This document shows, piece after piece, positions 51,125 to 55,993 of a stretch of 64,000 nucleotides of DNA. Source of the DNA: an uncultured Pseudomonadales bacterium (lineage in GTDB: Bacteria > Pseudomonadota > Gammaproteobacteria > Pseudomonadales > Azotimanducaceae). Position 1 is the stretch's first letter. Every line of letters starts with the position of its first letter. The DNA is taken from the NCBI GenBank assembly GCA_958296025.1, contig OY282430.1, positions 2,480,001 to 2,544,000 on the forward strand, given 5' to 3'. The notes under the pieces are model-generated. The model did not search any database. It had not been told where the DNA came from and was given only the letters and a program-made list of their open reading frames with translations. The position numbers and the translations under genes were made by a program.

Positions 51125-52081
51125 ATGAACTTCCCCCTTTTGCTGGAGCTGGCGCTGGTCGTCGCCGTGGCCATCGGCTTGGGCTACGCCGCCGCCCTGA
51201 CCACAGAGACCGTGCGCACCGGCTTCATGGTGCGGCGGCGGATGCGCGCCTTTGCGGAATCCCTAAGCGTGGAGGACGCGACGCAGCGGACGGTGCATAC
51301 GGCGGCGCCGACGACCACGAAAGCGGTGGAAAACCCGCTATTGGCCTGGATCAACGGCCGCTTCCCCTTGGCCGGAGGCGGGCGGGTGAGCCTGATCGTG
51401 GTCAGCTCGGCAGTGCTGGCCTTCGCCGGGCTGACGCCCTTTTTGATATTTCTCGGCATGGGCACTGTCGTGGCGGTCCTCCTTTCCTTGGGGCTCTCGG
51501 TGGCCTTGGGCTGGAACATTGGCGGCCTGTTGGAAAACGGCAAGCAGGACGAGTTCAGAGACCGCTTTCTGGTGGCCATGGAGGACTTTCAGCGCATGGT
51601 GCGCTTTGGCATCCCCGCCATGCAGGCCCTCCAGTCCGTTGGCGAAACCGCCGAGGAGCCGCTCAAGACCTCAATGCGCAACATTCTGCTGGAGACGAGC
51701 TTCGGGGTCCCCTTGGAGCACGCCATAGCCCACGAGGCGCACCGCATCCGCATGAGTGAGCTGGCCATGCTGGCCGCAATCATCTCCACCCAAGCCACCA
51801 CCGGCGGCAACCTGTCCGAGGCGGTGGGCAACTTGGCCGCCATGCTGCGGGAGCGGCGCGACAACAAGGCCAAAATGAAGGCGGCCACCGCCGAGTCTCG
51901 GGTCACGTTGGTCATTCTGAGCCTCGTTCCCGTGCTCGGCATCGGCGTACAGGCCTTCATGCAGCCGGACATCGTGGGAATACTGTTAGGCGAAGGCCGG
52001 AACTTGCTCGGCATCGGCTTGGGCCTGATCGTGGCTGGCCTCGTGATGTCCTGGCTAATGATGCGCAGTGCGCAGCGATGA
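51125..52081 (+). CDS. tadB: TadB inner-membrane platform protein
   Basis: 318 residues, a type II secretion F-domain protein with one N-terminal helix, a pair of central helices (VSLIVVSSAVLAFAGLTPFL) and a C-terminal helix. The cytoplasmic F domain has FLVAMEDFQRMVRFGIPAMQ and IISTQATTGGNLSEAVGNLA, diagnostic of TadB/GspF. Its stop overlaps the tadC start (ATGA at 52078). Confidence 0.93.
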   Translation: MNFPLLLELALVVAVAIGLGYAAALTTETVRTGFMVRRRMRAFAESLSVEDATQRTVHTAAPTTTKAVENPLLAWINGRFPLAGGGRVSLIVVSSAVLAFAGLTPFLIFLGMGTVVAVLLSLGLSVALGWNIGGLLENGKQDEFRDRFLVAMEDFQRMVRFGIPAMQALQSVGETAEEPLKTSMRNILLETSFGVPLEHAIAHEAHRIRMSELAMLAAIISTQATTGGNLSEAVGNLAAMLRERRDNKAKMKAATAESRVTLVILSLVPVLGIGVQAFMQPDIVGILLGEGRNLLGIGLGLIVAGLVMSWLMMRSAQR

Positions 52082-53025
52082 TGCTCGATGCGCTGCTGCT
52101 CGTCGTGCTGCTGGCCCTAGGCGCCGGCATTTTCGCCGGCCTGCGCTACCTGATGGACCGCTCGCGCATGACCCGTCGCTTGGCGCTGGCGCAAGGGGAG
52201 CGCCCGAAAGGCGGCATGGAGACCCGGTTCGCGATAGGCGCCGCCGGGGTGAAGGGCGCCTTGGAGCGGGTGTTCACCGTGTTGGGCGCCTTCATGCCCT
52301 TGGGCGAGGATGACCGGCGCAAAATCGCCTTGAAGCTGTCGCGGGCTGGCTACCGATCCACCAACGCCGTGACCATCGTGCTCGGCACCAAGTTCGTCTG
52401 CATGGCCGCCGGTCTAGGGGGGGGGCTGGTCGTGCTCAGCCCCATGCAGCCCGGCCTGATAGGCATCGGCTTGGGCTTGGTGGGCGGCTTGGTCGGCGGG
52501 GTGATGTTGAACGTGATCCCGGAGATGATCGTCGGCAAGCTGGCCTCCGGGCGGTTGTGGCGCATTCAGTCGGCGCTGCCGGACGCCCTGGACCTGTTGA
52601 TCGTGTGCCTGGAGGCCGGCCTGACCTTCGAGCGCGCCCTGCGCCGCACGATCAATGACCTCAAGACCTTTCAGCCGGTTCTGGCGGCGGAACTCGGCCA
52701 AGCCAGCTTGGACATGAGCGTCCACGGGCGCAACCGGGAGGAGGCTCTAGGCCGAGTGGCGGAGCGGCTGGACAGCCAGGACCTTCGCGACCTGACCACC
52801 ACGGTGGCGCAAAGCGAACGCCACGGCACGCCCACGGCGGACGCGCTGCGCAAGCTGGCCGGTTCGGTGCGCATCGAAACCATATCCAGAACTCAGGCCA
52901 AGATGGCCCGCCTGCCAACGCTGCTGGTCATCCCGGCCATTTCCTGCCTATTGCCGGGTATTCTGGTGCTGGTGGGCGGCCCCTCCATGCTTAAGTTGGT
53001 GAACCAACTGAGCAACATGCAATAA
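52078..53025 (+). CDS. tadC: TadC inner-membrane platform protein
   Basis: 315 residues, partner of TadB with the same F-domain: ALPDALDLLIVCLEAGLTFE, LDMSVHGRNREEALGRVAER and TTTVAQSERHGTPTADALRK. Helices lie at both ends and in the middle. It is coupled to tadB by a four-base overlap and is the last Tad gene. A run of nine G at 52417-52425 encodes Gly-Gly-Gly in a membrane segment and is a potential slippage site. Confidence 0.93.
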   Translation: MMLDALLLVVLLALGAGIFAGLRYLMDRSRMTRRLALAQGERPKGGMETRFAIGAAGVKGALERVFTVLGAFMPLGEDDRRKIALKLSRAGYRSTNAVTIVLGTKFVCMAAGLGGGLVVLSPMQPGLIGIGLGLVGGLVGGVMLNVIPEMIVGKLASGRLWRIQSALPDALDLLIVCLEAGLTFERALRRTINDLKTFQPVLAAELGQASLDMSVHGRNREEALGRVAERLDSQDLRDLTTTVAQSERHGTPTADALRKLAGSVRIETISRTQAKMARLPTLLVIPAISCLLPGILVLVGGPSMLKLVNQLSNMQ

Positions 53026-53059: not shown

Positions 53060-53692
53060 CTATCCGGAGTGCCGCCCCCTGGCGCCATGACCGCCCCGCC
53101 AACCGGGAACCTTGACGTCAAAGCTCTGTTCGGGAACCGTCCGCAAGTTACCTTGGCCCGGCCCTTCGGCCGCAACTTGGTCTGACGGCTGCTCAGGCTG
53201 CCCGTGGTCCGCTTCATCCGGCAGCCTTGCGGCGGCGGCGGACACCCCTTGAAACCTGGAGTTCTGCGACCTTGAGGCGCGCTGCTCCCGTTCATGCATT
53301 GCCGCAATCTGCGCCAAAGCCTGGCGCATGGCTATCCAACCCATGCCCAAATTAGCGGTCTTGCCGGTGACCAGCACGAACAAGGTGCTCTCCCAGCCGG
53401 GGACCACCGCCATGAAGTGGTGCATGTCCGCCGTGGTGGTCTGGATTTCCCGCACGAAACCGGCTTGGGAGGCACCGCCACCGGACATCTCCAACTCAAG
53501 CTGCCAAACCGTTCTGCCCCGAAAATAATCCACGCTGGCGACGGAGAGATACTCCATGGCGGCTGGGTTGAGCGACGACCCAGGCACAACATCCATGGCC
53601 AAGGGCAAGCCGGTGTCCAAGTCCACCACCGCACAACCTAGGCAGCCGCCGATCTCGGTGACGATGCCTTGGCACAGATCATCCAAATTCAT
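53060..53692 (-). CDS. Roadblock/LC7 (MglB-like) protein, second paralogue
   Basis: 210 residues. The domain parallels the protein at 15166: CLGCAVVDLDTGLPLAMDVV, EYLSVASVDYFRGRTVWQLE, SQAGFVREIQTTTADMHHFM and LFVLVTGKTANLGMGWIAMR. Both share the FVRE(V/I)Q-TT and LGxGWxA signatures. The tail after residue 125 is shorter and polar. ATG 53692 has GGGAGGTG seven bases upstream. It converges on tadC with a 34-bp gap, and the methyltransferase transposon sits about 95 bp upstream of its start. A role in Tad positioning through an unseen GTPase is plausible but only inferred. Confidence 0.65.
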   Translation of the reverse strand: MNLDDLCQGIVTEIGGCLGCAVVDLDTGLPLAMDVVPGSSLNPAAMEYLSVASVDYFRGRTVWQLELEMSGGGASQAGFVREIQTTTADMHHFMAVVPGWESTLFVLVTGKTANLGMGWIAMRQALAQIAAMHEREQRASRSQNSRFQGVSAAAARLPDEADHGQPEQPSDQVAAEGPGQGNLRTVPEQSFDVKVPGWRGGHGARGRHSG

Positions 53693-53836
53693 TGACGCAC
53701 CTCCCGGTGAGTTGCCCCGTTCCATGCCTGAGCGTCCAACCACCATGCACATGCCAGCGCCCCATGTCAAGCGCGGCCGCCCATCCGCAGCAGTTCTCAT
53801 TTTGGCATTTTTACATAGCGCCGGATTGAGGGAGGC

Positions 53837-53865
53837 TTGACAGCATAGGACGTTGTGCCTATGGT
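53837..53865 (+). promoter_or_regulatory. Promoter inside the transposon left end
   Basis: A perfect TTGACA at 53837-53842 and TATGGT at 53860-53865 are spaced 17 bases apart. Transcription would start near 53872, directly at the ATG at 53873, giving a leaderless message for the methyltransferase. This is inferred from spacing only. Confidence 0.5.
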
Positions 53866-53872
53866 GCGGGCC

Positions 53873-54547
53873 ATGGGCAACCCGTGGTTCGGATCGAAGG
53901 CGTCGTCGGGGCTGTGGCAGGCGCTGGTCGCGCTGATGCCGCCGCACGCGGTGTACATTGAGACGCACTTGGGCGGGGGCGCGGTGATGAAGCGCAAGCC
54001 GGCGGCGCTGCGCAACATCGGGATCGACCTGGACGCGCGGGCGCTGTCGTCATTCGAGTGCGGCCATGCGGTGGAACTGGTCAACGCGGACTGCCACGGG
54101 TATCTGGCCGATTTCGCGTTCGACGGTTCGGAGCTGGTCTACAGCGACCCGCCGTACCTGCGCGCGGCGCGCAAGTCCGGGCGCCGTTACCGGCACGACT
54201 ACGGGGACGCGGACCACGCGGCGCTGCTGGAACTGCTCAAGGGGCTGCCGTGCGCGGTGATGGTGTCGGGGTACCCGTCGGCGCTCTACGACGAGCTGCT
54301 TTGCGGTTGGCGCAGCGTGGCGCTGCAGGTGATGAACCAGGCGGGCGTGGTCACCGAGAAGGTGTGGTTCAACTTCGAACCGGACCGGGTGCACTGGGCG
54401 TCGTGCGCGGGGCGGGACTTCACGCACCGGCAGACGGTCAAGCGCAAGGCGGCGAGCTGGGGCCGGCGCTACCGGGCGATGCCTCCGGCGGAGCGCCTGG
54501 CGGTGCTGGCCGCGGTCATGGCAGTGGAAGCGCAGGCGCCGCCGTGA
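53873..54547 (+). CDS. DNA adenine methyltransferase (D12 class), transposon passenger
   Basis: 224 residues from ATG 53873 (ATG 53861 is an alternative). The N-terminus MGNPWFGSKASSGLWQALVA resembles the ryPGGK-type start of Dam-like enzymes. AdoMet-binding motif I is YIETHLGGGAVMKRKP and the catalytic motif IV is LVYSDPPYLRAAR (DPPY). It should methylate adenine in DNA; the target sequence is unknown. The family also occurs as an orphan phage methyltransferase. Its stop overlaps the transposase GTG (54544), so the two proteins are probably made in fixed ratio. A methyltransferase could mark or regulate the transposon ends. Confidence 0.8.
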   Translation: MGNPWFGSKASSGLWQALVALMPPHAVYIETHLGGGAVMKRKPAALRNIGIDLDARALSSFECGHAVELVNADCHGYLADFAFDGSELVYSDPPYLRAARKSGRRYRHDYGDADHAALLELLKGLPCAVMVSGYPSALYDELLCGWRSVALQVMNQAGVVTEKVWFNFEPDRVHWASCAGRDFTHRQTVKRKAASWGRRYRAMPPAERLAVLAAVMAVEAQAPP

Positions 54548-55833
54548 AGCTCCTCGGCGGCCATCTGGAACGGCTCCGGGCGTGCTTCGCCGGGCTGCCG
54601 GACCCGCGTCGCGGCCGCAACCGCCGGTACGCCATGGCGGACGTCGCCATGGCGGCGCTGTCGGTGTTCTTCATGCAGTCGCCGTCGTTCCTGGCGCATC
54701 AGCGCGCGCTGGCCGAGGGACGCACGCGGTCCAACGCGCACACGCTGTTCGGCCTGGCCCGCATCCCCTGCGACAACCACATCCGGCAACTGCTCGACGG
54801 CGTGCCGACGGCGCACTTCGACGACGAGTTCCACGCCATCGCCGCGGACCTCGACGCGCACGGCGCCCTGGCATCCATGCGCCGCCTGGACGGCCGGCTG
54901 CTCGTCGCCCTGGACGGCACGGAGTTCTTCCGCTCGCGCAGCATCCACTGCCCGCACTGCGCGACCCGCAAGCGCAGCGACGGCGCCACGGAGCACTTCC
55001 ACCAGATGCTGGCCGCCACCCTGGTGGCGCCCGGCCACGCCCGCACGCTGCCGCTGCCCCCGGAGTTCGTGGCGCCCCGCGACGGCGCCGCCAAGCAGGA
55101 CTGCGAACGCGAGGCGGCCAAGCGCTGGCTGCAACGCCACGGAACCCGCTGCGCGCCACTGCGCCCCGTCTACCTGGGCGACGACCTGTACGCCTGCCAG
55201 CCCGTCTGCCGGGCGATGCTCGACAGCGGCGGCGACTTCCTGCTCACCGCCAAGCCGGCCAGCCACAAGACCCTCTGCGAGCACCTCGACGGCATCCGCC
55301 CGCCCACCCGCCGCGCCACCGCCGGCGCCGGCGCCCGCCGGCGCATCCACCGCTACCGGTGGATGACCGACCTGCCCATCCGCGACGGCGACGACGCCCT
55401 GCGCGTCAACTGGCTCGAGATCACCAGCGCGCGACCCGACGGCACCGTCACCCACCGCGGCACCTTCGTCACCAGCCTCGACGTCGACCGCGACAACGTC
55501 GCCGAACTCGCCGACTGCGCCCGCGCCCGATGGAAGATCGAGAACGAGACCTTCAACGTCCTCAAGCAGCACGGTTACCACCTCAAACACAACTTCGGCC
55601 ACGGCAACGACACCCTCGCCGGCGTGCTGGTCGTCCTCAACCTGCTCGCCTTCTCGCTCCACAGCGCCTGCGAACTCGCCGAGACGCTCTGGCAGAGCGC
55701 CCGCCGGCGCCTCGGCACCCGGCGCCGATTGTTCGAACACCTGCGAACCGTCACCGAATACCGGCTGTTCCCCGACTGGAACAACCTCCTGTCACTGCTC
55801 GCTACCGGCGGTACCGCCGCCCAGCCGCCCTGA
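54544..55833 (+). CDS. DDE transposase (IS4/ISNCY-like)
   Basis: 429 residues from GTG 54544. The likely catalytic residues are the Asp in LLVALDGTEFFRSR, the Asp in VYLGDDLYACQPVC and the Glu in ARWKIENETFNVLKQHGYHL. The IHCPHCATRK zinc-like knuckle and AKQDCEREAAKRWLQRHG are shared with a group usually labelled ISNCY or IS4-like; the exact family is not certain. The frame is complete and lies within matched inverted repeats. Unusually, the upstream gene is a methyltransferase rather than a second transposition protein. Confidence 0.85.
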   Translation: MKLLGGHLERLRACFAGLPDPRRGRNRRYAMADVAMAALSVFFMQSPSFLAHQRALAEGRTRSNAHTLFGLARIPCDNHIRQLLDGVPTAHFDDEFHAIAADLDAHGALASMRRLDGRLLVALDGTEFFRSRSIHCPHCATRKRSDGATEHFHQMLAATLVAPGHARTLPLPPEFVAPRDGAAKQDCEREAAKRWLQRHGTRCAPLRPVYLGDDLYACQPVCRAMLDSGGDFLLTAKPASHKTLCEHLDGIRPPTRRATAGAGARRRIHRYRWMTDLPIRDGDDALRVNWLEITSARPDGTVTHRGTFVTSLDVDRDNVAELADCARARWKIENETFNVLKQHGYHLKHNFGHGNDTLAGVLVVLNLLAFSLHSACELAETLWQSARRRLGTRRRLFEHLRTVTEYRLFPDWNNLLSLLATGGTAAQPP

Positions 55834-55993
55834 ACTCCCCGTCCCACTCCCAACCCGACATCAACCGAACACCACGAACTCGACCGGAGCCGCGAACAAC
55901 ACCCAAAATGAGAACTGCTGGCCCATCCGCCTTCGTGTACGCAGGGTATTGCAAAATTCTTGAGCGGGAACCACCGATTGCGCTTTTTGGCAG

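Follow-up and report, generated by a model that had tools for sequence, protein, structure and literature searches.

An insertion sequence with a predicted adenine methyltransferase gene and an operator-like palindrome ahead of its transposase

The stretch of DNA analysed here, referred to throughout as the window, comprises 64,000 nucleotides from the genome of an uncultured Pseudomonadales bacterium (contig OY282430.1, positions 2,480,001 to 2,544,000). At 53788-55920 it contains a 2133-bp insertion sequence whose two overlapping genes encode a short DNA methyltransferase (MTase) and a transposase. An earlier note on this DNA pointed out that the element brings its own MTase, and the gene arrangement bears this out: the two genes form one operon, with the MTase ahead of the transposase. 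The same MTase clade, with an operator-like promoter, is found before several different transposases, which suggests, on the basis of sequence comparisons, that it represents a portable self-regulating switch for jumping genes.

The element and its copies in the host genome

The element and its flanks contain the following features.

53779-53787, no strand: left target duplication, 9 bp, GCCCATCCG, which recurs at 55921-55929; the other six copies of the element have different perfect 9-bp repeats
53788-53805, plus strand: left terminal inverted repeat, 18 bp, complementary at 18/18 positions to 55903-55920 and identical in 7/7 copies
53837-53842, plus strand: -35 hexamer TTGACA, from a consensus scan, retained in the related loci L010, L036 and L066
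53844-53863, plus strand: operator-like palindrome CATAGG-N8-CCTATG with outer arms TAG-N10-CTA, the latter in register in other transposon-borne MTases
53860-53865, plus strand: -10 hexamer TATGGT, from the consensus scan, overlapping the right arm of the palindrome
53873-54547, plus strand: predicted short Dam/D12-like adenine DNA methyltransferase, 224 amino acids (ATG 53873, TGA 54547), with DPPY at residues 92-95
54422-54448, plus strand: C-terminal basic segment THRQTVKRK of the MTase, with Arg186-Gln187 (54428-54433) as proposed operator readers; covariation with operator base 4
54544-54547, plus strand: GTGA overlap of MTase stop and transposase start, retained in L010, L012, L035, L036 and L066
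54544-55833, plus strand: DDE-type transposase, 429 amino acids (GTG 54544, TGA 55833), with DDE model matches below cut-off
55903-55920, minus strand: right terminal inverted repeat, 18 bp, pairing with the left end and the same in 7/7 copies
55921-55929, no strand: right target duplication, 9 bp, repeating the left one

Both ends read CAGCAGTTCTCATTTTGG; as the earlier note had seen, they are perfect inverted repeats flanked by a perfect 9-bp duplication, and the two genes overlap as GTGA. The host genome (one contig of 3,915,453 bases) holds seven full copies of the element, each flanked by a perfect 9-bp duplication of a different sequence. The copies vary at only five positions, all within or 3' of the transposase gene. 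One copy has a deletion, another has two adjacent changes, and the last two variable positions lie 3' of the gene. The deletion is a frameshift that cuts the transposase of that copy to 273 amino acids, and the MTase gene is identical in all seven. Because the copies are near-identical and sit between different perfect duplications, we conclude that the element moved recently; the insertion sequence is real and recently active. A search of the host genome for the element ends, allowing up to two mismatches, returned the 14 ends of the seven copies and one solo site; copies that are shortened or lack the MTase but keep recognisable ends were not found. The solo site (two mismatches, G000:C1:3769137-3769154) is possibly the remnant of an old copy. 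A 51-base segment (L008, G000:C1:2552171-2552221) shares 80% identity with part of the MTase gene; it is about 2 kb away from the element copy at 2548020-2550152.

The MTase falls short of the curated Dam/D12 family scores (17.2 bits for Pfam PF02086, cut-off 22; 25.4 for TIGR00571, cut-off 114.85). Its DPPY motif (D92, P93, P94, Y95) is invariant in 23 MTase rows, and the profile of the family matches the structure of DpnM (2dpm, E 5.6e-8). We infer that it is a Dam/D12-like adenine DNA methyltransferase with predicted methylation activity. As estimated from the ratio of nonsynonymous to synonymous substitution rates (dN/dS) among the window, L010 and L036, purifying selection is stronger on the MTase (0.17-0.21) than on the transposase (0.35-0.43). 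The transposase also stays below curated family cut-offs (DDE_Tnp_1_assoc, 26.3 bits versus 32.3; DDE_Tnp_1, 19.9 versus 23) and matches no NCBIfam model; a relative with 37% identity is annotated ISNCY.

A consensus scan of the element finds a single promoter-like site, TTGACA-17-TATGGT at 53837-53865 (mean in shuffled sequence 0.1), and none directly before the transposase. The MTase ATG lies only 7 bases behind this promoter, so that a leaderless message, as already envisaged in the earlier note, is possible. Overlooked at that time was the palindrome CATAGG-N8-CCTATG, which lies within this promoter. In its exact form it occurs at seven places in the host genome, and these are the seven copies of the element.

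The methyltransferase clade and the transposases behind it

A survey of 80 genome loci with relatives of the window transposase found the MTase at three (L035, L036 and L066), which are the three loci whose best transposase segment has at least 78% identity. Among the 77 MTase-less loci, 14 have less than 700 bases of upstream DNA, so that an MTase could be missed there, and 24 belong to a single 1.4-kb element multiplied in one alphaproteobacterial genome. In this element (the L037 group) about 75 bases separate the left end from the transposase start, which leaves no room for an MTase; its ends, CAGCAATTCTCATTTTGG, are nearly the same as those of the window element, and 9-bp repeats flank 21 of the 24 copies. 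In two of the copies, L040 and L060, the flanking duplications are swapped, as after recombination between copies. As judged from these loci, the MTase is a late addition in the window transposase family, most members of which, some of them highly multiplied, lack it. Within the genus of the host, the MTase-transposase pair is found in genomes G006, G007 (broken) and G004 (decayed, 62-65% identity). The 3.3-kb contig with L036 was binned as Acidimicrobiia, perhaps wrongly; the same sample series also yielded a Pseudomonadales bin carrying the element (L035).

The distribution of the MTase itself is wider with respect to transposase type. In a scan of 369 genomes of the class, seven, including the window's own, contain a match to the MTase at E 1e-30 or better. 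Two of them, G303 and G290, have multiple copies of MTases with 64-69% identity. In G303, the eight copies examined (a ninth is also present) are housed in a 2.7-kb element with ends CTCAAGAGTCCCGAG, whose transposase comes nearest to IS701, with a score of 150.7 bits that stays under the cut-off of 170; by eye, duplications of 6-7 bp flank four of the eight copies, and some of the others look rearranged. In two plasmid relatives of this IS701-like transposase (75% identity) the ends are similar and an MTase is absent. The G290 element has ends of the IS66 type, and the frame directly 3' of its MTase is an IS66 transposase (237.5 bits, cut-off 180); its sole complete copy, L167, has no matching duplication. 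A tenth MTase in G303 precedes a broken IS66 transposase (DDE_Tnp_IS66, 45.9 bits, cut-off 23.1), and in G295 a truncated MTase is followed by a partial IS4/Tn5 transposase (236 bits, cut-off 160) in a decayed copy. Six further repeats with IS66-like ends (by eye) lie at contig ends of G006 (L328-L331, L339 and L340); each has the operator promoter and the first 8-9 residues of an MTase. All six are interrupted by the end of their contig, and what follows the MTase start is not assembled; this IS66-type MTase is seen by its first residues only and was left out of the tree.

In a tree of 31 MTases, one starred clade (support 100/99) holds nine transposon-borne rows together with one decayed row of unknown setting. 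Members of this clade stand upstream of four transposase types: the unclassified type of the window, IS701-like, IS66, and IS4/Tn5 (partial and decayed). Wherever the transposase of a transposon-borne case was seen, the MTase is the gene next to the promoter. The window transposase has no match at E 1e-3 to the transposases of the other elements. Three of the four types touch the broad Pfam model DDE_Tnp_1; they are therefore different families, not necessarily families without a common origin. The earlier note had tied the link between the two genes to how regularly related transposases have the MTase. On this question the two surveys diverge: the presence of the MTase at only 3 of 80 loci in the transposase family speaks against a link, whereas the position of its clade before three other types speaks for one. 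As traced across these genomes, the pairing is not a single accident.

The operator-like palindrome and residue 187

Homologues of the MTase occur on plasmids (178 records, 130 of them typed as conjugative) and in phages (83 records, 8 of which match over 80% of the query). All of these records are below 60% identity to the window MTase, and the transposon-borne clade was therefore not seen on such carriers. To compare upstream regions we used a set of 114 loci, with six dropped for a late profile start (L066, L194, L227, L242, L253 and L251); removal of near-duplicates and of upstream pieces shorter than 80 bases gave 104 loci, 65 with close and 39 with distant homologues. Strict 6/6 palindrome counts (15 of 104 loci at length 20, with 4.1 in shuffles; 19 at length 18; 18 at length 16) proved too noisy, and were therefore replaced by a matrix with held-out clusters. 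The matrix, CATAGTCAnATnTGACTATG, scores above 10 in 48 of the 65 close homologues, its own training set, and in 2 of the 39 distant ones. With protein clusters held out, the 20-bp palindrome matrix still exceeds 10 in 41 of 65, against 0.7% for shuffled sequences and 4.1% for other stretches of these loci. TAG-N10-CTA as such is present in 17 of the 65 upstream pieces (shuffles 3.1%). A related palindrome lies upstream in six of the nine phage and plasmid records that were scored. Upstream of six phage, plasmid and chromosomal MTases (L178, L190, L191, L192, L203 and L209) the operator is present in two to four copies, for the most part spaced 26-42 bases, an arrangement that suggests cooperative binding.

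Among the transposon-borne MTases, only the decayed G295 has a site that fits this matrix (score 20.5). The matrix misfits the remaining seven of the eight, and these were therefore judged by TAG-N10-CTA. In all 12 promoters collected for the MTase group, one per lineage, TAG-N10-CTA stands at a constant distance from the -35 hexamer, which is itself altered in the decayed G295 and G009. A scan for the pattern TTGACA-N3-TAG-N10-CTA-N3-T in seven genomes, selected for holding the MTase, gave 36 matches, with none in G009 and none for the reversed control. Of these matches, 33 lie directly before an MTase start (several are contig ends that show only 8-18 residues), and three precede other genes, namely two orthologous antitoxin-toxin operons and an operon with an oxidoreductase-like gene (by eye). 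The former, L332 3412 (G000:C1:3704061-3704089) and L333 2957 (G007:C23), are by eye operons of a Phd/VapB-type antitoxin and a PIN toxin and have the same promoter layout.

Replicons and gene neighbours vary from case to case, the common element being the MTase. Changes at one operator position are matched between the arms and covary with an MTase residue. The pair of positions 4 and 17 is complementary in 33 of 45 sites (15.5 expected; 0 of 2000 shuffles), and no other operator pair in those 45 sites is in excess beyond 9% of shuffles. Ranked by mutual information with operator base 4, residue 187 is first among 218 MTase columns. For 46 of the 65 rows, leaving out those that are gapped at residue 187 or lack a site above 10, base A accompanies Gln187 in 85 of 102 half-sites and C accompanies Glu187 in 28 of 32; with Ala, Asn, Ser or Tyr at this residue, A is found in just 2 of 42. 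When the rows are thinned, the association persists among 32 representatives below 75% identity (Fisher test 1e-4) and 16 below 60% (0.03); with the 7 left below 50% the test is empty (1.0). The adjacent Arg186 is present in all 62 ungapped rows and base G5 in all 45 sites; these sites were chosen by the matrix, which favours G5. Some close pairs with different residues at 187 also have different operator bases, as do L201 and L189, which are 80% identical. Each of the ten closest of these pairs includes L201 or L275, so that they are not independent. The window protein has Arg186-Gln187 and the window operator A4-G5, in agreement with the prediction from the covariation.

With respect to its surroundings, the insertion point lies about 96 bases upstream of the start, near 53692, of a minus-strand gene (window positions 53500-53700), and two genes that by eye resemble TadB/TadC of a Tad pilus adjoin the element at 51125-53025.

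A possible regulatory role, its alternatives and known systems

We consider it fairly probable that the MTase is its own repressor, which would read the palindrome in its promoter through its C-terminal segment and hence control the transposase too. In the element, a cassette of promoter and MTase separates the left end from the transposase gene. The MTase would be bifunctional, combining the predicted adenine DNA methyltransferase with a binder of the palindrome between its own -35 and -10 hexamers, and binding of the operator by the basic segment would limit transcription of the MTase gene. Since the scan finds no promoter for the transposase by itself and the transposase start lies inside the stop codon of the MTase, the same feedback would limit the transposase. 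More copies of the element would then provide more repressor and activity would fall, whereas entry into an element-free cell would allow a short burst of MTase and transposase. The self-regulation proposed in the earlier note is now the best-supported idea, with a promoter operator taking the place of methylated ends as the probable point of control, and it is widened from a single element to a cassette common to four transposase types. As the leading idea for the control point we rejected methylated ends, through which the element was suggested to mark itself or to time its transposition: the ends hardly differ between relatives with and without the MTase, and none of the four GATC sites in the element (element positions 105, 235, 1632 and 1749) falls in either end or in the promoter.

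Several observations weigh against the MTase as autorepressor. The main weakness of treating the two kinds of sites as one operator type, as far as their sequences can be compared, is that the sites of the transposon-borne clade have the outer arms only: seven of the eight transposon-borne MTases among the 65 rows fit the phage and plasmid matrix poorly (best scores -8.4 to 5.9), and these seven sites share only the outer TAG-N10-CTA, which is partly also the -10 hexamer. Three of the nine scored phage and plasmid records have no site above score 10. The operator-reading role proposed for the MTase is deduced from the covariation of residue 187 with base 4. Shared ancestry inflates the covariation numbers, 8 of the 25 Gln187 rows have a best site without A on both sides (4 of them with C), and a residue that appears to read the operator could equally set methylation specificity. 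The promoter is retained in L010, L036 and L066; the sequences of two further MTase-bearing relatives, L035 and L012, end before it, that of L035 inside the MTase. Finally, MTase-less copies exist in the window transposase family and for the IS701-like transposase, so that the MTase is not needed for transposition.

An alternative explanation, which we regard as rather unlikely, is that the MTase is an anti-restriction passenger that protects the element, or the plasmid or phage carrying it, in a new host. Autoregulation would then limit the toxicity of methylation, and the effect on the transposase would be a by-product. The free-standing homologues on plasmids, most of them conjugative, and in phages agree with this explanation, as does the stronger purifying selection on the MTase. 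However, the transposon-borne clade itself was not seen on such carriers, and the promoter-proximal position of the MTase, with the transposase behind the operator in every transposon-borne case that shows a transposase, would stay unexplained. A benefit against restriction is compatible with either operator binding or promoter methylation. Somewhat less likely still is a methylation switch, in which the TAG/CTA half-sites are methylated and adenine methylation beside the -10 hexamer, not occupancy by protein, sets the promoter level. Each outer arm contains an adenine, the covarying residue could be a target-recognition residue, and control through methylation of a promoter site has been reported for CfrBI, to judge from the title of the report cited in PMC3874152. 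However, the fixed spacing of two arms that change in concert agrees better with a dimer than with methylation sites acting independently. We assign a low probability to a chance pick-up in a single lineage with no bearing on transposition. The 77 of 80 related transposase loci without an MTase match would be expected under chance acquisition (14 of them with short upstream DNA, and 24 of them copies of one element); nevertheless, the same clade, promoter layout and gene order precede four transposase types, the MTase is under purifying selection, and the GTGA overlap is retained in five related loci. That a host or other unlinked regulator binds the palindrome, with the MTase merely one of its targets, as the three pattern matches before other genes might indicate, is very improbable, given that the exact window palindrome is confined to the seven copies, that changes in its arms track an MTase residue, and that the hosts and replicons differ widely.

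Beyond autorepression as such, we tentatively suggest that the MTase-repressor with its operator promoter is a portable governor, possibly captured by at least four insertion-sequence families and placed ahead of their transposases, which would provide a zygotic burst and copy-number control and may also mark DNA. If this were the case, a cassette of promoter, repressor and DNA-modifying enzyme that moves between transposase families would represent modular self-limited transposition, and Arg186-Gln187 reading A4-G5 would be a testable protein-DNA code for a large family of phage and plasmid MTases. In the literature searched, mostly outside subscription journals, we found neither the regulation of this family nor the occurrence of this MTase in insertion sequences described. 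For some insertion sequences, MTase passengers are already listed.

The usual restraints on insertion sequences are weak promoters, antisense RNA, frameshifting and the host Dam methylase. In IS10 and IS50 the host Dam methylase is the regulator, and GATC sites lie in promoter and end. The window element resembles them in that adenine methylation and control of a transposase promoter are predicted within an insertion sequence, but here the element encodes the enzyme, and GATC is absent from its ends and promoter. M.SsoII is a cytosine MTase with an N-terminal regulatory part that controls a restriction gene. It is reported to recognise a regulatory site other than the one it methylates and to act as a transcriptional regulator within its own system (PMC6100179), so that one MTase can do both jobs. 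The window MTase likewise has a conserved palindrome in its own promoter, of which the transposon-borne clade retains only the outer arms; in contrast to M.SsoII, it is of the adenine type, would read its operator with a C-terminal segment, and would control a transposase. The short orphan MTases of P2-like phages and plasmids belong to the same family (44-52% identity in the best among the matches listed). In the annotated records fetched they are not in an operon with a transposase, and those with a site have a longer inner palindrome, often in several copies, whereas the window clade has the outer arms only.

Viral Mariner elements, tied to large viruses of eukaryotes, also encode a transposase and a DNA MTase, together with an endonuclease (Bao and Jurka 2013, PMC3627910); the portion of that account available to us describes no operator or regulatory link. 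A parallel in overall make-up is provided by transporter insertion sequences (tIS), which, in the sections of the sources at hand, combine normal ends with a gene not needed for transposition (PMC9330008, PMC3129680). The window element is likewise an insertion sequence with normal ends and an extra gene; ends, 9-bp repeats and both genes are present in all seven copies (one with the frameshifted transposase), which places it in this class, and its passenger-less relatives of the L037 group share its ends. However, tIS passengers are usually described as cargo, whereas the passenger of the window element is the first gene, has the only detected promoter and is the probable regulator of that promoter. 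A further difference is that one clade of this MTase serves several transposase families.

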